Assembly (NCBI RefSeq): GCF_013280595.1
Contig: NZ_JAAATY010000001.1
Location: 501,987-565,986 of the forward strand
Reading direction: 5' to 3'
From: Kibdelosporangium persicum
Lineage (GTDB): Bacteria; Actinomycetota; Actinomycetes; Mycobacteriales; Pseudonocardiaceae
Length of the DNA stretch: 64,000 bases
Positions 12,292 through 19,937 of this stretch are shown here, in pieces. Every line of letters starts with the position of its first letter. Position 1 is the stretch's first letter. The notes beneath the pieces are model-generated. The model made no database searches. It was not told the origin of the DNA and saw only the letters and a program-made list of their open reading frames with translations. The position numbers and the translations under genes are program-made.

Positions 12292-12882
12292 CTAGACGGG
12301 CGCGGTGCCGATCAGGCCGTTGCGGGTGACCAGGGCGGCGAGTTGCTCCTCGGCCAGGTTCTCCGTCCCGGGTGGACGGTTGGGGACGACCAGGTAGCGG
12401 GTCTCCGCGTTGGCGTCCCACACCTTGATCTCGACCTCGGGCCGCAGCTCGAAGCCGAACTCACGGAGCACCTCCCTGGGCTCGCGGACCACTCGCGACC
12501 GGTAGCTCTCGCTCTTGTACCAGGTCGGCGACGGGCCGAGCAGCGCGAGCGGATAACACGAACACAGCGTGCACACGACCACGTTGTGCTCACGGTCGGT
12601 GTTGGCCACGACCTGGAGGTCCTGCACCTGAAGCCCGCCACGCATGGACAGGTCGAGCTCGGCGATCACGGCCGGGGCGTCGGCCAGCAGGCGGGCACCG
12701 AAATCCGGGTCCGTCCACGCCCTGGCGACTATGCGTGCGCCGTTGGCCGGTGACGCCCGGTTGAGGTACGCCGCCAGCGTCTCGTCGAGCGCGCCGGGGA
12801 TGACCAGGCCGCGTTCCTCCAGCAGGCGCTCCAGGTGGCGGACTCTCGCCGCGATCGGCGCGTCCGAGTGGTCCCCGCTCAC
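12292..12882 (-). CDS. Nitrile hydratase alpha subunit, cobalt type
   Basis: 196 residues. The metal-binding claw VCTLCSCYP gives Cys104, Cys107, Ser108 and Cys109; Thr after the first Cys is the signature of Co-type enzymes (Fe-type has Ser). It hydrates nitriles to amides, with two claw cysteines normally oxidised. The GTG at 12882 is chosen because it overlaps the stop of the upstream gene (GTGA), a translational coupling. A longer reading frame to 12906 is less likely. The beta subunit is encoded by two separate upstream genes, giving a three-gene layout like thiocyanate hydrolase and toyocamycin nitrile hydratase. Confidence 0.9.
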   Translation of the reverse strand: MSGDHSDAPIAARVRHLERLLEERGLVIPGALDETLAAYLNRASPANGARIVARAWTDPDFGARLLADAPAVIAELDLSMRGGLQVQDLQVVANTDREHNVVVCTLCSCYPLALLGPSPTWYKSESYRSRVVREPREVLREFGFELRPEVEIKVWDANAETRYLVVPNRPPGTENLAEEQLAALVTRNGLIGTAPV

Positions 12883-13142
12883 GGCCGCTCCAGGTAGCTC
12901 TGCCACATGCTGAGCGTCACCGAGTGGTCCCCCGTGCCGAACAGGTCCTGGGCCGCGAACCGGACCGCGTAGACCATCTCCTCCGGCGAGGAGATGCCCC
13001 GGATGACGTCGTCGGGCAGCCGGTGTGTGCCCTGGAACCGCACGACGGTGCCGACCACGCCGCGGGCGTACGCCGGCAGCCGCGTGTGGTGCGAGGGGTC
13101 GACGCTCTTCGCCCGGACCCGGTCACCCGTCGCGAAGGTCAT
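12879..13142 (-). CDS. Nitrile hydratase beta subunit, C-terminal half (SH3-like)
   Basis: 87 residues corresponding to the C-terminal SH3-like barrel of nitrile hydratase beta: FATGDRVRAK, HHTRLPAYARGVVGTVV, HRLPDD and VYAVRFAAQDLFG are the conserved elements. It starts inside the preceding half-gene (20-base overlap) and its stop overlaps the alpha start. All three should form one heteromeric enzyme. Confidence 0.85.
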   Translation of the reverse strand: MTFATGDRVRAKSVDPSHHTRLPAYARGVVGTVVRFQGTHRLPDDVIRGISSPEEMVYAVRFAAQDLFGTGDHSVTLSMWQSYLERP

Positions 13143-13416
13143 CCAGCTCCTCCTCGGTGAAGACGCCCTTCTCGATCAGCAGTGCGCGGATCGCCAGGAA
13201 CCAGCGCTGGTAGTAGGACGACGCGAGGTACTGACCGGGTGGCAGCCGCTCGACCGCGTCGCGGAACTCGTCGATCTGGTAGACGCCCTGCCGGACCAGC
13301 GTGCTGTTCAGCGCGAAGACGTGTGCCTCCCAGTCCGCGTGGAAGGGCGGCTCGTCCTGCTCGGCGACGATCTGGCCGAAGCCGTACATGCCCCCGACGT
13401 CGTTGATCCGGCTCAT
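13123..13416 (-). CDS. Nitrile hydratase beta subunit, N-terminal half (or activator-like)
   Basis: 97 residues beginning MSRINDVGGMYGFG, the conserved N-terminus of nitrile hydratase beta, followed by PPFHADWEAHVFAL and YYQRWFLAIRALL helices. Full-length beta subunits continue in one chain; here the other half is the next gene. Activator proteins of Co-type enzymes are homologous to the same N-terminal region and similar in size, and no other activator gene is visible, so this protein might also help cobalt insertion. First gene of the operon beta-N, beta-C, alpha. Confidence 0.85.
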   Translation of the reverse strand: MSRINDVGGMYGFGQIVAEQDEPPFHADWEAHVFALNSTLVRQGVYQIDEFRDAVERLPPGQYLASSYYQRWFLAIRALLIEKGVFTEEELDDLRDG

Positions 13417-13688: not shown

Positions 13689-14447
13689 GTGACCGAGCAG
13701 CGACTGTCCACCTGGGAAACACGGACGGAATGGCCGATGGCCGTGCTCGCGGCGGCCTTCCTTGTCGCCTATGCCTGGCAGGTACTGCACCTGAGCGCGC
13801 CCGCGTGGCTGCACCTCGCGCTGGAGATCGCGCTGTGGGTGATCTGGCTGGTCTTCGCCGCGGACTACGTGATCAGGCTGATGCTGGCGGAGCGGAAACT
13901 GCGCTTCGTCTGGCGGCACCTGTTCGATTTGCTGGCCGTCGCGCTGCCGATGGTCCGCCAACTGCGGGCGTTGCGTGTCGTCACCGTGCTCCGGGTGCTC
14001 AACCGCAAGGCTTCGACGGCCTTCCGCGGCCGGGTGGCGATTTATGTCGGGATAGTGACGCTGTTGGTGAGTTTCGCGGCGGCGATCGCGGTGCTGGATG
14101 CCGAACGCGGCAATCCGGATGCCGGAATCGACTCGTTCGGGAAAGCGCTGTGGTGGACGCTCACCACGATCTCCACGGTCGGCTACGGCGATGTTTATCC
14201 GACGACATGGGAAGGCAGGCTGGTGGCGGCCAGCCTGATGATCGGCGGGATCGCGCTGCTCGGTGTGATCACCGGAATGATCGCGTCGTGGTTCCTGGAA
14301 CGCATCCAGCAAACCGAGGACACGGTGAACAAAACCGTGCGGGCCACCGTTCACCAGGAGACCGACGAACTGCACGTCGAACTGGTGACGCTGCGCGAGG
14401 AGGTCAGCAGGCTGCGCGAGCAGCTGGCGAACCAGAAACCTTCCTAA
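13689..14447 (+). CDS. Voltage-gated-like potassium channel
   Basis: 252 residues. An S1-S4-like bundle occupies about 15-110, with an Arg-rich S4-like stretch (RQLRALRVVTVLRVLNRK). The pore helix and selectivity filter TVGYGD (residues 163-168) are followed by the inner helix, then a C-terminal coiled coil (ELHVELVTLREEVSRLREQL). This layout matches prokaryotic Kv channels. Starts at GTG. The stop overlaps the convergent radical SAM gene by four bases. Confidence 0.9.
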   Translation: MTEQRLSTWETRTEWPMAVLAAAFLVAYAWQVLHLSAPAWLHLALEIALWVIWLVFAADYVIRLMLAERKLRFVWRHLFDLLAVALPMVRQLRALRVVTVLRVLNRKASTAFRGRVAIYVGIVTLLVSFAAAIAVLDAERGNPDAGIDSFGKALWWTLTTISTVGYGDVYPTTWEGRLVAASLMIGGIALLGVITGMIASWFLERIQQTEDTVNKTVRATVHQETDELHVELVTLREEVSRLREQLANQKPS

Positions 14448-16249
14448 CGGCCGCGGGTGGCCGGCAGTGCCAGCGCGAGGGCCAGTGACTCGTCCAGGAA
14501 CATCAGCCCGCGCTCGGCGAACTGGGCGAACGCGTCCTCGATCGCCCTGACCGGCACGTCCGGGCCGAGTTTGTCCTGGACGGCCCGTGCGGTGGTGGGG
14601 CGATCACCGCATGCCAGGTAGATGCGGGCGAGCGTGTCGCGGAACGTGTACGTGCCTTCGCGGCCCTCGTGCCTGCCGTCGTAGATCCGCAGGTAGCCCG
14701 GGGAAGACCAATAGGTGAGCACGGGCCGGTGCCGCGACTCCCACAGTCCGGTCCACGCCGCCACTTCGCGAGCGAGGTCGGCGTAGGTCTCGTCCGGTAG
14801 CGCGTCCTCCATTTCGTAGTCGAAGAAGTACGCGATCCTGTCGAGGTCCACTGTCTTCGGGTACACGTACTGATAGCTGCGTTCCGGGGCACGGTGCCGC
14901 ATCCGCATCCGCGTGTACATCGGGCTGAACCGCTCCAACCAGACGCGCGCGGCGCCTTCCGGCGGTTGCAGGTGGACCAGGTGCGGGATGACCGCGGCCT
15001 GCTGGGCGTAGTCCGCCGTGGTCTCGCCGGGGAATCCCCACAGGATGTTCCAGCCGACCTCGATTCCGTAGTACCTGGCCCAGCGCAGCAGGTTGACGTT
15101 CTGCGCGGCCCGCACGCCCTTGTCCATCAGCCGCAGCACGTGCGAGCTCAACGATTCCAGCCCTGGCTGAAGGCGGGTGACGCCGGCTTGGGCCAGCAGC
15201 TTCAGGTGGGCCCGGCTCAGGTTGGCCTTGACCTCGTAGAAGAACTCGTAGTCCGAGCCGTCCTCGACGACCGCCGGGAGGAGTTCCCTGACGTAGCGGG
15301 GATCCATGATGTTGTCGACGGCTTCGAACTGGAACGCGCCGTACCGCCGGGCCTGGCCGGCCAGCTCGGCGAGCACACGGTTCGGGGACTTAGCGCGGAA
15401 TCGCATGGTGGTGCCGTTGAGGCCGCAGAAGGTGCAGTGGTGTTTGGCGCCCCACCAGCAACCGCGGGCCGATTCGATCGGCAGCCACACCACGTCGGGC
15501 AGCAGCCCGAGGTTCGCGGCCCGCTCGAAGTACTCGTCATAGTTCGGTACCGGCAGCTCGTCGAGTGCCTCGATCGGCGGTTCGGCGGGCGTCATCCCGT
15601 CGCGGCTCGCGACACCGGGAACGGTCAGGGGATTCGCGCCTTCCGACAACGCCTTCAGCAACCGGGGAAAGGCGGTGTCCCCTTCCCCGATCACGACGTA
15701 GTCCACGCACTCCACCGAGCGGGCGAACTCCAGCCCCATCTCGCCGTCGAAACCGGCCCCGCCGAAGACCGTCACGATGTCCGGACGGCGCTGTCTGATC
15801 CTGCGGGCCAACGCGAACGACGCGGTGTTCTGCTGGAACGTGCAACTGAACCCGACCACGTCCACATCGGACCAGTCGATCCCGTCGGCCAGGTCGTCGA
15901 GGAACGCCGGGACGTCCCGATCCCGGGTACGCAGCAGCCGGTCACGAACCGGACCGCCACCGGCCAGATAGGACAGTTCCGGCTCGAACTCCCCGGGCAG
16001 CAGGGCATCCGGGTCGGGCGCGTCGGCCCCGAACGCCTCCACCGAGAACAGCCAGTCCCCGATCATCCGGCCACGCATGTCCGCGAGCGCGCGGTAGTAC
16101 TCGATCCCGATGCGCGCGGCGAAGTCCAGGTTCGCGTGCACCGTGCGCACCGGGAAACCGTTCGCCTCGCCGATCGCCCGGAGCAGTCCCAGTTGGATGG
16201 ACGGGCGATCGACGTGCGTGAACGGCATCGAGAGCAGAACAGTCCGCAC
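14444..16249 (-). CDS. B12-binding radical SAM enzyme, RiPP-maturase type
   Basis: 601 residues. An N-terminal cobalamin-binding-like Rossmann region (DVVGFSCTFQQNTASF, FGGAGFDGEMG) precedes a radical SAM barrel with an unusual Cys264-x7-Cys272-x2-Cys275 cluster motif in CWWGAKHHCTFCGLNG. CWWGxxHHCxFC is the hallmark of RiPP-maturation radical SAM C-methyltransferase-like enzymes, which alkylate unactivated carbons in ribosomal peptides. Conserved downstream elements include GLESLS and WNILWGFPGE. The GTG at 16249 leaves two bases after the upstream small gene, indicating tight coupling; a longer frame to 16306 would overlap it. The neighbouring 94-residue protein is the likely substrate. Confidence 0.85.
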   Translation of the reverse strand: MRTVLLSMPFTHVDRPSIQLGLLRAIGEANGFPVRTVHANLDFAARIGIEYYRALADMRGRMIGDWLFSVEAFGADAPDPDALLPGEFEPELSYLAGGGPVRDRLLRTRDRDVPAFLDDLADGIDWSDVDVVGFSCTFQQNTASFALARRIRQRRPDIVTVFGGAGFDGEMGLEFARSVECVDYVVIGEGDTAFPRLLKALSEGANPLTVPGVASRDGMTPAEPPIEALDELPVPNYDEYFERAANLGLLPDVVWLPIESARGCWWGAKHHCTFCGLNGTTMRFRAKSPNRVLAELAGQARRYGAFQFEAVDNIMDPRYVRELLPAVVEDGSDYEFFYEVKANLSRAHLKLLAQAGVTRLQPGLESLSSHVLRLMDKGVRAAQNVNLLRWARYYGIEVGWNILWGFPGETTADYAQQAAVIPHLVHLQPPEGAARVWLERFSPMYTRMRMRHRAPERSYQYVYPKTVDLDRIAYFFDYEMEDALPDETYADLAREVAAWTGLWESRHRPVLTYWSSPGYLRIYDGRHEGREGTYTFRDTLARIYLACGDRPTTARAVQDKLGPDVPVRAIEDAFAQFAERGLMFLDESLALALALPATRGR

Positions 16250-16251
16250 GG

Positions 16252-16536
16252 CTAGGGCTTGATGTAGCCGGGCTTGACGTGCATGTCGACGTGCTTGCCG
16301 AAGCACCGCCCGTCGACGGTCTCCTCGTCGTAGCTGAGACTCAGCGTGGTCTTGCCCGCCTTGAAGGCGGAGGAGAACTGGTCGGCGTACGCCCGGAAAC
16401 CGTCCATGATCGCCGTCGTGGCGCCGTAGACCAGGCCGCAGAACAGGTCCCGTTCCTTCTCGGGCAGGCTCTCCGAGAACTTGTCGAGCTTGCGCAGCAG
16501 CGTGGTGAACTCCGCCACCGTGACTTCCTCTGGCAT
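16252..16536 (-). CDS. Candidate RiPP precursor peptide
   Basis: 94 residues. The N-terminal part is an amphipathic, leader-like helix (FTTLLRKLDKFSESLPEKER), then a mixed middle (Cys33), then a C-terminal 35-40 residues rich in Thr, Ser, Tyr, His and Val with Cys78 (GRCFGKHVDMHVKPGYIKP). It sits directly upstream of a B12-radical SAM maturase (2-base gap) and 20 bases downstream of a SARP gene, as expected for a precursor. Start ATG 16536 follows GGGGAGGA at six bases; an in-frame ATG at 16560 is possible. The sequence is not assigned to any known precursor family, and it could instead be a small accessory protein. Confidence 0.6.
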   Translation of the reverse strand: MPEEVTVAEFTTLLRKLDKFSESLPEKERDLFCGLVYGATTAIMDGFRAYADQFSSAFKAGKTTLSLSYDEETVDGRCFGKHVDMHVKPGYIKP

Positions 16537-16556
16537 TTCCGTCCTCCCCTTGGTGT

Positions 16557-19250
16557 TCATCCCAGTCGTGCCCTGAGCTCCCCGGCTTCCGGCAGCCCGA
16601 TCTGCTCGAACCGCTCAGCGGCGCGGTGCCATGCGACGTGCGCGGAACTGACGTCGCCCGCGTTGTGGTGCGCGTCGCCCAACGACGTCAGGGCGATCGC
16701 CTCGGAGTGCCGGTTGCCCAGTTCACGGTTCACGTCGACCGACGACTGGTGGCACACGATCGCGCGCTCGTGATCGCCGAGGCGGCTGTACGCCAGACCG
16801 AGACTGTCCCAGGTCTGCGCGGCGCCCACGTCGTCACCGAGCTTGAGTTGCAGGTCGATCGCCTTCTGACAGTAGTTGAGCGCGTCGACGTGCGCACCGA
16901 GCAGCGCGTGCAGGAACCCGACCGCGTTGAGCGCACGGCCTTCCCCGGGTTTGTGGCCCGCGGCCCGGAACACGTCAAGACAGCGCTGGGCGTACCTGAG
17001 CGCTTCGGTGTGCCGGTTCTCCCGTTCGAGCATCCAGCAGAAACATTGCAGGACAAGGCCTTCGCCGAGCCGGTCGCCGGCCTCGCGGTACAGTTCGAGC
17101 GCGGTCCGCAGCAGCTCGGCGCCTTCGCCGGATCGTCCGAACAGGACGTGACAGCAGCCGATGAAACACTGCGCGTAGGCCTCTTTGGCGGGATCGCCGA
17201 GGCGCCGGGCCGCTTCGAGCGCGGGCAGGAGCGAGCGGAGCTGTTCGTGCCGCAGCCCGCTGCGCGTGAAGTAACGCCGCAAGGTCCAGGCGAGCAGCCA
17301 GACCTCCTCGTCGAACCCGGTTGTCCGGGTGATGGCCGCCACCATCACCCGGTGTTCGGCATGGAACCACGCCAACGCCTTCGCCTTGTCGGACATGGGT
17401 TCGACGACCACTCCGGCGGGCAACCCCGGCAGTTCGGGTGGTGTCTCCCGGAACGGGTCGAGCAGGCCGTCGGCGAGGTTTCCACTGTGGACGTAATAGG
17501 CCAGCATCCGTTGTGTCGCGGCGAACCGGTCGTCATCGTCCTGGGCCAGTTCGGCCGCGTACGTCCGGAGCAGGTCGTGCAACCCGTACCGGCCAGGGCT
17601 CTCCTCCGCGACCAGGTGCGCGCCGGCCAGCTCCGCCAGCAACGGCCGCACCTTCGCGACCGGCAGGCCGGCCGTGCTGGCCGCCGCCCGGGTGGTCACG
17701 TCCGGCCCGGGGTGCAGGCCGAGCAGCCGGAACAACCGGGCTGCTTCGGGCGTGAGCTGAAGGTAGGACCACGAGAAGACGGCACGGGGATCGGTCGCCG
17801 GATCGGCGCCGGATAACTCGCCCAGGCCCGGCCGCAGTTCGTCGGCCAACGCGGCGAGGCTGAACTTCGGGTGGGTCGCGGCCCGGGCCGCGACCACGGC
17901 CAGCGCCAGCGGGAGCCGGGCGCACAGCCGGATGATCTCGTCGACCGCCTCCGGCTCGGCCGCCACCCGGGCCGGGCCGATCCGGCCGGCCAGCAGCTGT
18001 CGTGCCTCGGCGAGGGTGAGCAGGTCGAGCATCAGCGGATGGGCCCCCTCGGCGACCAGCCCGGCGAGCTGGTCCCGGCTGGTGACCAGGACCAGGCACT
18101 GCGAGGCTCCGGGCAGCAACGGCCGGACCTGATCGGCGTCCCTGGCGTTGTCCAGCACGATCAGCACACGCCGGTCCGCCAGCAGGCTGCGGTACAACCC
18201 GACCTGTGCCTCGAACCCGGCGGGCACCCGTTCGCGCGGCACGTGGAACGCGTCGACGAACGCGCGCACCGCCTCGGCCGGGGACACCGGTGTCCCGGTT
18301 GGATCGAACCCGCGCAGGTTGAGGTACAGCTGGCCGTCGGGGAAGTCCGCGCGCGCCCGATGCGCCCAGTGCACGGCCAGCGACGTCTTGCCGACGCCCG
18401 CGGTCCCCGAGATCACGACGATCCGGGCCTTCTCCAGTCGCCCCAGCTGTCCCAGGTACTCGGCCCGGCCGGCGAACCCGTACACGTCCGGGGGCAGCTG
18501 CGCGGGCGCCGAACTGGTCCTGCGTGGCGGCGCGGGTTCGCCCCGCAGGATCAGGCTGTGCAGCGCCCGCAGCTCCGGCCCCGGGTCGGTGCCCAGTTCG
18601 TCGGACAGTCGTTGCCGGATGGCGCTGTAGCGGTCGAGCGCCTCCGCACCCCGGCCCGCCGCGTGCAGGGCCCGCATCAGGACCCGCTCGAACTGCTCGG
18701 CCAACGGGTGTTCGGCGGCCAGGTCGAGGAAGACGTCGATCACCTTGGCCGGGCGGGCGAGCCGCAGCTCCACCTCACCCCACTGGACGATCGCGTCCAG
18801 CCGCCTGCGGGACCAGCGGTCACGGACCTGGTCGACCCACTCGCCCTGGATGCCCGCCAGAGGCGTGCCCTGCCAGAGCGCCAACGCCTCGGCCAGCGCG
18901 GTGGCCCGCTCGTCGTCCGGCAGGTCCTTGCTTCGCTCGACCAGCCGCCAGAACCGGTGCACGTCCACCGAATCCGGTGGCACGTCCAGCACGTAGCCCG
19001 CGGGCCTGCGCTCCAGCGTCGCGATTCCCTTGAGCAGCCGCCGGATCCGGCTGAGGTGCGAGTACAGGACGTTGCGCGCCTCGGCGGGCGGCGCGTGGTC
19101 CCAGACCCGGTCGATCAGTGCCTCGATCGGGACGGGTCTGCCCACGTCGACGAGCAGCGCGGCCAGCACGGCCTGCTGGCGTGGGGTTCCCACGTCGAGC
19201 GGCCGATCCGCGGTCCGCAGCTGAACCTCCCCGAACAGCCGGAACTCCAT
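16557..19250 (-). CDS. AfsR-type SARP regulator with NB-ARC ATPase and TPR domains
   Basis: 897 residues: winged helix (1-90), BTAD (about 95-240), NB-ARC ATPase with Walker A GTAGVGKTS near 281 and Walker B VLIVLDNA, winged-helix and TPR-like repeats to the C-terminus (repeated A-x-x-x-LG-x-A-Y motifs). This is the classical AfsR layout, different from the LuxR-ended SARPs elsewhere in the window. Its own promoter carries a SARP box at the correct distance from a -10 element, so autoregulation is likely. It is the first gene of an apparent operon with the small peptide gene and the radical SAM maturase, and is probably their activator. Confidence 0.9.
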   Translation of the reverse strand: MEFRLFGEVQLRTADRPLDVGTPRQQAVLAALLVDVGRPVPIEALIDRVWDHAPPAEARNVLYSHLSRIRRLLKGIATLERRPAGYVLDVPPDSVDVHRFWRLVERSKDLPDDERATALAEALALWQGTPLAGIQGEWVDQVRDRWSRRRLDAIVQWGEVELRLARPAKVIDVFLDLAAEHPLAEQFERVLMRALHAAGRGAEALDRYSAIRQRLSDELGTDPGPELRALHSLILRGEPAPPRRTSSAPAQLPPDVYGFAGRAEYLGQLGRLEKARIVVISGTAGVGKTSLAVHWAHRARADFPDGQLYLNLRGFDPTGTPVSPAEAVRAFVDAFHVPRERVPAGFEAQVGLYRSLLADRRVLIVLDNARDADQVRPLLPGASQCLVLVTSRDQLAGLVAEGAHPLMLDLLTLAEARQLLAGRIGPARVAAEPEAVDEIIRLCARLPLALAVVAARAATHPKFSLAALADELRPGLGELSGADPATDPRAVFSWSYLQLTPEAARLFRLLGLHPGPDVTTRAAASTAGLPVAKVRPLLAELAGAHLVAEESPGRYGLHDLLRTYAAELAQDDDDRFAATQRMLAYYVHSGNLADGLLDPFRETPPELPGLPAGVVVEPMSDKAKALAWFHAEHRVMVAAITRTTGFDEEVWLLAWTLRRYFTRSGLRHEQLRSLLPALEAARRLGDPAKEAYAQCFIGCCHVLFGRSGEGAELLRTALELYREAGDRLGEGLVLQCFCWMLERENRHTEALRYAQRCLDVFRAAGHKPGEGRALNAVGFLHALLGAHVDALNYCQKAIDLQLKLGDDVGAAQTWDSLGLAYSRLGDHERAIVCHQSSVDVNRELGNRHSEAIALTSLGDAHHNAGDVSSAHVAWHRAAERFEQIGLPEAGELRARLG

Positions 19251-19258
19251 GTGACCCG

Positions 19259-19290
19259 ATGCTGGTCGGTCCGCAAGGTTGCTGCAAGGT
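19259..19290 (-). promoter_or_regulatory. SARP box and leaderless promoter of the RiPP-locus SARP
   Basis: On the minus strand ACCTTGC is repeated with a four-base spacer (19290-19284 and 19279-19273). Eight bases further is CAGCAT (19264-19259), and eight bases after that the ATG. Heptamer direct repeats spaced by four and placed eight bases before the -10 are the textbook layout of SARP-activated promoters. Confidence 0.65.
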
Positions 19291-19355: not shown

Positions 19356-19937
19356 ATGGCTCTTGCCGCTCTCGTGGACGACGCGGCTCGCGGTCGGGGC
19401 GAGGCGTGGACAACGCTGGTCCAGCGATATCGCCCGCTCGTGGCGGCGATCTGCCGCAACCTCGGCATCACCGGAGTGGACGCCGAGGACGTGGCCGGGA
19501 CGCTGTGGCTGCGCCTGGTGGCGAACGTGACGTCGATCCGCGACCCGGAAGCCCTGCCGGGCTGGATCGTCACCACCACGCGCCGCGAATGCCTGCACCT
19601 GCTGCGCGACCGCGCCCGGCACGTCGCGCAGGAGACCGAGGACCTGCCCGACCCGGCCGGCCAGGGGCCGGACAGCAGGCTGCTGGTGGACGAACGCCTG
19701 GCCGCGCTGCGCGCGGCCATCGACGGACTGTCCGACCGTGACCGGCGCCTGCTCACGCTGCTGTTCGCCGACCCGCCGCTGCCCTATTCGGAGATCAGCG
19801 CGCGCCTGGGCATGCCAGTTGGCGCGATCGGCCCGACGAGGCAGCGCTGCCTGGCCAGGGTCCGCAGCAACCCCGCCATCGCGGCTCTGCTGGTCAACGA
19901 ATGTCACGCCTCTCAGAGGCAGCACGAACCCGTTTGA
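19356..19937 (+). CDS. Sigma-70-family (ECF-like) sigma factor
   Basis: 193 residues. Region 2 reads AWTTLVQRYRPLVAAICRNL and AEDVAGTLWLRLVAN; region 4 reads LSDRDRRLLTLLF, YSEISARLGMPVGAIG and RQRCLARVR. This is the typical two-domain sigma factor that directs RNA polymerase to alternative promoters. AGGGGGA precedes the ATG by six bases. It is divergent from the SARP gene and shares its upstream region, so it may belong to the same regulatory unit. No anti-sigma gene is adjacent. Confidence 0.85.
   Translation: MALAALVDDAARGRGEAWTTLVQRYRPLVAAICRNLGITGVDAEDVAGTLWLRLVANVTSIRDPEALPGWIVTTTRRECLHLLRDRARHVAQETEDLPDPAGQGPDSRLLVDERLAALRAAIDGLSDRDRRLLTLLFADPPLPYSEISARLGMPVGAIGPTRQRCLARVRSNPAIAALLVNECHASQRQHEPV

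Follow-up and report, generated by a model that had tools for sequence, protein, structure and literature searches.

A SARP-linked gene cassette of Kibdelosporangium persicum with a precursor-like peptide and a predicted radical SAM C-methyltransferase

Genes of the locus and the radical SAM enzyme

We examined a 64,000-nucleotide stretch of the Kibdelosporangium persicum genome (NZ_JAAATY010000001.1, positions 501,987 to 565,986; hereafter the window, whose numbering is used throughout), in which three genes follow one another closely on the minus strand. In the order of transcription these are a gene for an AfsR-type Streptomyces antibiotic regulatory protein (SARP; 16557–19250) with BTAD, NB-ARC and TPR domains, which is the first gene of a presumed operon; a gene for a precursor-like peptide of 94 amino acids (16252–16536); and a gene for a cobalamin-binding radical S-adenosylmethionine (SAM) enzyme (14444–16249), the gaps between them being 20 and 2 bases. 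A gene for an extracytoplasmic function (ECF)-type sigma factor (19356–19937, plus strand) is divergent from the SARP gene. A previous reading of the sequence alone had described this arrangement and proposed that it encodes a ribosomally synthesized and post-translationally modified peptide (RiPP), and the open reading frame (ORF) coordinates bear out the shared strand and both gaps. The identities it gave to the SARP, enzyme and sigma factor likewise hold, with NCBIfam or Pfam scores above the cut-offs for each of the three. The SARP has both the Trans_reg_C DNA-binding domain (PF00486, 29.2 bits, cut-off 26.2) and the BTAD domain (PF03704, 118 bits, cut-off 22.1) by which such regulators are recognised, and the sigma factor matches TIGR02937 with 74.3 bits (cut-off 42.9) and both Sigma70_r2 and Sigma70_r4 above their cut-offs. 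The start of the SARP gene had been placed at 19290, and here the earlier description needs correction, as the most likely start is at 19250. A Shine-Dalgarno-like sequence, GGGGAGGA (16542–16549, minus strand), lies five bases 5' of the ATG of the peptide gene; an alternative ATG at 16560, upstream of this start, would extend the peptide to 102 amino acids.

The enzyme matches TIGR03975, the family of RiPP maturation radical SAM C-methyltransferases, with 628.1 bits (cut-off 281.85) over profile positions 2–606 of 606. It contains a B12-binding domain (PF02310, 43.8 bits, cut-off 32.1) and a radical SAM domain (PF04055, 56.8 bits, cut-off 29.5), the combination that defines class B (cobalamin-dependent) radical SAM methyltransferases, and its cluster motif is CX7CX2C (C264, C272 and C275; 15425–15460, minus strand), invariant in all 22 enzymes aligned. 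This is the motif of PoyC-like Cbeta-methyltransferases; it is reported for PoyB and PoyC, and PoyC is reported to methylate the beta carbons of Val and Ile (PMC5682303, PMC11285071). PoyB and PoyC, which act in the biosynthesis of the proteusin polytheonamide, are likewise described as cobalamin-dependent radical SAM enzymes with a ribosomal precursor (PMC5682303, PMC11285071), whereas the precursor in the window has no match to the NHLP leader, and a SARP and an ECF gene adjoin the window enzyme.

The predicted structure of the enzyme has as its nearest folds the solved structures of TokK, CysS, OxsB and TsrM. TokK and CysS act on small molecules and OxsB is not a methyltransferase; we know of no link between any of the four and a peptide of this kind. 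TsrM, too, is described as acting on a small molecule (PMC5682303). Fold comparison further identifies a C-terminal winged-helix domain (residues 486–601; 14447–14794, minus strand) that is possibly related to, and may serve as, a RiPP recognition element (RRE). A PDB sequence search with this domain gave nothing meaningful (best E 0.35), and PqqD is not among its 50 listed structural matches. The domain weakly resembles DUF5825 in 15 of 22 relatives. Its profile also matches other TIGR03975 enzymes (L060 to L062, L066, L070 and L073), and the domain is therefore not special to the SARP-linked group described below.

Among the closest known systems are those of the clavusporin type, in which a B12 radical SAM enzyme paired with a DUF5825 protein is reported to C-methylate (PMC12257519). 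In the bacterial family to which K. persicum belongs, at least six other loci pair a TIGR03975 enzyme with an adjacent DUF5825 gene, but among the 10 window proteins encoded between 12295 and 21208 none matches PF19142 (DUF5825) at E <= 1, and we reject a clavusporin-type pair. The system in the window thus differs in having no separate DUF5825 gene among these 10 proteins, and in its precursor of about 90–120 amino acids. None of the 10 is another recognised RiPP-maturation enzyme by NCBIfam or Pfam. A second TIGR03975 enzyme is encoded elsewhere in the same genome (L079, contig C51, 35175–36980; 503 bits, and 237 bits against the window enzyme) and adjoins an ORF of 1017 amino acids that by eye resembles a nonribosomal peptide synthetase condensation protein.

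Recurrence of the peptide and enzyme genes

We surveyed 390 genomes of the same bacterial family for TIGR03975 enzymes (E <= 1e-60) and found 81 matches in 59 of them. Neighbourhoods were taken for 44 of the 81, mostly the better-scoring ones, and gene calling recovered 43 enzymes (that of L046 was missed). A SARP gene precedes, in the same orientation, each of the 21 enzymes closest to that of the window (at least 785 bits). Among the remaining 22 (490 bits or less), SARP-like ORFs lie upstream at two loci, a weak one (155 bits) at 111 nt in L077 and another (326 bits) at 3.7 kb in L062.

A scan of species genomes, from which the best 80 of 134 relatives were used, gave 76 loci, or 75 named loci once a fragment (L132) was dropped; these overlap with the 390 family genomes. 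A SARP is present in 38 of the 75, in 35 cases no more than 900 nt 5' of the enzyme gene and in the same orientation, and in three elsewhere in the locus, and an ECF homologue occupies the same divergent place in 14. Since the gene order recurs in many genomes, with an ECF gene in this position in those 14 loci, it is not a chance arrangement. A relative of the peptide (E < 0.01) precedes the enzyme in 41 of the 75 loci, including 37 of the 38 that carry a SARP (L102 being the exception), as counted with a profile that started from nine peptides, of which eight came from the loci under study, and with each later profile including its own hits (34 loci in the first pass, 41 in the later ones). 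A short precursor-like gene beside a maturase gene, conserved across genomes, is the arrangement by which RiPP clusters are recognised. Four of the 41 loci with peptide and enzyme have no SARP in the locus DNA (L104, L105, L112 and L133), and these are from Sorangium, Mesorhizobium, Blastococcus and Sphingopyxis.

When 98 enzymes were placed in a tree, all 39 SARP-linked rows came together in one group of 40 (SH-aLRT 99), whose remaining member is the SARP-less Blastococcus enzyme. The nearest relatives of the window enzyme are from Kibdelosporangium species. The enzyme of L121 groups with these also, although its record (JOAA01000001.1) is titled Rhodococcus rhodnii NRRL B-16535, a label that looks wrong.

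When the 390 genomes were searched with a profile of 47 peptides, 23 matches were strong (E <= 1e-14), and every one of them precedes a TIGR03975 enzyme by no more than about 160 bases; 11 weak matches (E 1.9e-4 to 0.0067) lie away from such an enzyme, and we read them as noise. Because the profile holds peptides from many of the genomes searched, only the absence of strong matches elsewhere constitutes a test. The sequence-only reading would have been undermined by close homologues of the peptide that occur without a radical SAM gene, and no strong match of that kind was found among the 390 genomes. With the window peptide alone as query, matches were found in five of the 390.

ORFs were also clustered across 38 loci. 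Judged by up to five examples per cluster, clusters present in more than seven loci lie only within the coordinates of the enzyme, SARP and ECF genes, shadow frames included. The widest clusters outside these reach seven loci; one is scattered, and the other is a small protein encoded about 2 kb beyond the start of the enzyme gene. The seven loci with this protein include L083, L084, L085, L086 and L098, and at least four are from Amycolatopsis; in the two sequences inspected (L043 and L044) it begins MDPSVIV.TANA.

The peptide family and its putative core

The 94-residue peptide can be divided into a leader (residues 1–53), a junction FSSAFK (54–59) and a putative core (60–94; 16255–16359, minus strand) that ends HVKPGYIKP, the core being assigned from conservation of Y-[IV]-K-P and from the enrichment of Ile-Lys/Arg in the family. 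The sequence-only reading did not recognise the peptide family, and profile searches agree: no NCBIfam model matches the window peptide at E <= 1, and the only Pfam match, DUF7809 at E 0.26, is below the cut-off. Across the 47 peptides, eight NCBIfam and three Pfam models reach E <= 0.05, each with one or two members; the best value is 0.0021, and a 'DynW-associated RiPP peptide' model (E 0.021) is among these weak matches, none of which is convincing. Two known leader types were considered and rejected. The NHLP-type leader of proteusins (TIGR03793) is matched neither by the window peptide at E <= 1 nor by any of the 47 members at E <= 0.05, and the Nif11-type leader (TIGR03798/PF07862) is matched neither by the window peptide nor by the 47 members (E <= 0.05).

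Members of the family begin with a segment that looks helical and differ at their ends; in 38 of 47 the junction has the form [FIY]..[ASCG]F. Core composition was counted in these 38 peptides, with kinship corrected only in the thinned sets. The dipeptide I[KR] is found in 17 of the 38 cores, compared with a shuffled mean of 5.4, and none of 5000 shuffles reaches 17. As the 38 cores are related, the set was thinned by identity; at 50% identity I[KR] is retained in 9 of 19 cores against a shuffled mean of 2.6, again reached by none of 5000 shuffles. Examples of Ile or Val next to Lys or Arg are YIKP and HVKP in the Kibdelosporangium group, FIKADFIKPHFIR in Amycolatopsis vastitatis, whose peptide has three such sites, and MIRSFIRS, LISR, IIRS and KIGR. 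The four Kibdelosporangium-group peptides keep Y-[IV]-K-P, which is doubled as RYIKPRYIKP in K. philippinense, and the exchange of Ile and Val at this position fits a chemistry that requires a beta-branched residue. The C-terminus had been called rich in Cys, His and Thr, which overstates the case, as it has a single Cys that is absent in K. philippinense; to judge from the sequences, it is better described by Ile or Val adjoining Lys or Arg.

A comparison of leader and core conservation, proposed by the sequence-only reading, gave a divided result. The closest pair (L121 and L080) shows the contrast expected of a precursor, with a nonsynonymous divergence (dN) of 0.21 in the core and 0.09 in the leader, but the window comparisons give values of about 0.5–0.6 for both parts, and we do not use a conserved leader with a variable core as proof of a precursor. 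The peptide evolves fast along its whole length; between the window and the other three members of its group, the enzyme has a dN of 0.10.

Six of the 47 peptides, mostly from Micromonosporaceae, have a signal-like hydrophobic N-terminus, which suggests that they may be exported directly in those lineages. Two of these carry twin arginines, in N-termini like those of the twin-arginine translocation (Tat) system (L089, 5435–5929; L092, 5670–5903); Tat export of a modified precursor would be unusual for a RiPP.

Enzymes of 50–51% identity follow small precursors at three Chloroflexota loci (L108, L111 and L124) on a neighbouring branch of the enzyme tree. These precursors have a Nif11 leader with a GG end (TIGR03798, 42–46 bits, cut-off 32), whereas the window leader matches no model. 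Their cores contain runs of Ile, Val and Thr, such as ISITVTIKF, and the related enzymes thus seem to have retained Ile/Val/Thr cores while the leader was exchanged. At two Acidobacteria loci (L142, 3835–5595; L147, 4309–5970) related enzymes follow larger proteins with PIKPI- or PISVGPP-type repeats near their ends. The repeat-bearing protein of L142 is a subtilase (PF00082, 84 bits), and the repeats may be the modified part.

The operator-like repeat, the proposed pathway and its alternatives

The gap between the SARP and ECF genes contains a likely SARP operator, CTTGCAGCAACCTTGCGG (19271–19288, minus strand), a direct repeat of CTTGC with an 11-bp period in which the heptamers agree at seven of seven positions. 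SARPs are known to bind direct heptamers at 11-bp spacing, and the position of this repeat 5' of the SARP gene supports the regulatory link that the sequence-only reading had drawn. When the regions upstream of 35 SARP genes (that of the window and those of 34 other loci) were scanned for repeats with at least six of seven matches, using simple shuffles as the control, a period of 11 was found in 19 regions compared with 6.4 in the shuffles. Periods of 9, 10, 12 and 13 occur in 10, 8, 11 and 5 of the 35; those of 9 and 12 also exceed the shuffles (10 against 6.4 and 11 against 6.6), with the largest excess at 11. The CTTGC box is common to the window and 15 of the 34 other regions, including all 14 with an ECF gene. 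In the 10.35 Mb genome the operator repeat is the sole site without mismatch, there is no site with one mismatch, and there are fourteen with two, compared with 14 for a reversed control. Across the genus an exact site is present in five of eight genomes, each time at the cassette, with nine one-mismatch sites against six for the control. We therefore reject a regulon beyond the cassette; most probably the SARP regulates the unit to which it belongs, and the CTTGC box points to no further target.

The explanation that we favour, and regard as reasonably probable, is a self-regulated RiPP cassette in which the enzyme C-methylates beta-branched (Ile/Val) residues of the core. We infer binding, methylation and cleavage of the peptide, and an activity of the product, along the following lines. 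The SARP would bind the 11-bp-period repeat between its own gene and the ECF gene, and would drive a single transcript for SARP, peptide and enzyme. The C-terminal domain of the enzyme would grip the peptide at the leader and at the F..(A/S)F junction, and the cobalamin/[4Fe-4S] centre would methylate an unactivated carbon; the most likely target is the beta carbon in core Ile or Val before Lys or Arg, here in HVKPGYIKP. Cleavage and export would be provided by genes elsewhere, and in the six relatives noted above the precursor itself bears a signal-like N-terminus. We favour this explanation because of the membership of TIGR03975 with B12-binding and radical SAM domains, the CX7CX2C motif, the co-occurrence of peptide and enzyme, and the enrichment in the cores; the exchange of Ile and Val, the Ile/Val/Thr cores in Chloroflexota, the RRE-like domain, the operator-like repeat and the single SARP-linked group in the tree add to it. 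The proposal of a RiPP-type locus is similarly supported by the co-occurrence, the maturase family, the PoyC-type motif and the possible recognition domain.

Several observations weigh against this explanation. The RRE match of the C-terminal domain is on a par with those to Fur-type winged helices, which score within 1 Z unit of it, and lies barely above the level that the tool calls common, a Foldseek search with the domain gave nothing at E <= 0.001, and in the window enzyme itself the domain has no DUF5825 match. The junction pattern is absent from nine of the 47 peptides, including four from Streptomyces with other tails; I[KR] is lacking in 21 of the 38 cores and [IV].?[KR] in 11, and thinning at 40% identity weakens the enrichment of I[KR] to 4 of 11 cores against a mean of 1.0, a count that 51 of 5000 shuffles reach. 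The window peptide shows no clear contrast between leader (dN about 0.6) and core (about 0.5) when compared with the other three in its group, and the ORF clustering of the 38 loci revealed no protease or exporter broadly conserved beside the enzyme. PbsB, which is likewise a B12 radical SAM enzyme and belongs to a RiPP pathway, is reported to cross-link ortho-Tyr side chains and not to methylate (PMC12257519).

This last example raises the possibility that the locus is indeed a RiPP cassette but that the enzyme performs other radical chemistry on the core, such as formation of a C-C cross-link, and the Kibdelosporangium cores do retain Tyr and Lys beside Ile or Val. We nonetheless consider it unlikely, as both the family (TIGR03975) and the CX7CX2C motif indicate methylation of the PoyB/PoyC type, and the cores keep no constant aromatic residues, whereas Ile before Lys or Arg is enriched. 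It is also conceivable, and in our view quite improbable, that the small protein is modified but stays within the cell or acts as a signal that tunes the SARP/ECF switch, instead of being released as a natural product. Such a role would suit the broad conservation of regulators and enzyme alone, the grouping of SARP and ECF in one unit whose operator has no second exact copy in the genome, and a divergence that spans the whole peptide and not the core alone; it is at odds with the four SARP-less loci with peptide and enzyme, and with the signal-like N-termini, which suggest export. That the peptide is no substrate at all, but either a small unrelated protein or a subunit partnering the enzyme, appears very improbable. 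It matches no RiPP precursor model and is weakly conserved, its 46 relatives being 14–40% identical to it, yet a subunit of enzymes that are 62–84% identical to that of the window should vary less than this, and the position of the gene, the junction motif, the core enrichment and the different leader at neighbouring enzymes all fit a substrate.

If the cassette does methylate Ile and Val, it could tentatively be regarded as a distinct actinobacterial RiPP class, although as a whole this wider proposal is doubtful. Its precursors would carry a helical leader of a new type and an F..(A/S)F junction, and a single B12 radical SAM enzyme with a built-in recognition domain would mature them; iterative beta-methylation would place tert-leucine-like residues next to Lys or Arg and protect basic peptides against proteases. 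Control would lie with a private SARP that has one genomic operator, and in some lineages a signal peptide would export the modified precursor directly. We found no description of this SARP-peptide-radical SAM cassette in the open-licence literature searched; the TIGR03975 enzyme family is known, while the precursor family, its junction and the SARP/ECF control appear undescribed. The cassette connects a large, poorly characterised family of enzymes with a defined family of substrates in an apparent two-gene system, and the activity of these enzymes thereby becomes testable by co-expression. Methylation of an unactivated peptide carbon is hard for chemists to achieve and would be expected to yield protease-resistant residues, and the single operator offers a possible handle for switching the cassette on.

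Outside the cassette, at 12292–13416 (minus strand), the window contains nitrile hydratase genes. The alpha subunit gene (TIGR01323, 252.6 bits, cut-off 249.85) adjoins two small overlapping genes that correspond to the N- and C-terminal halves of the beta subunit.

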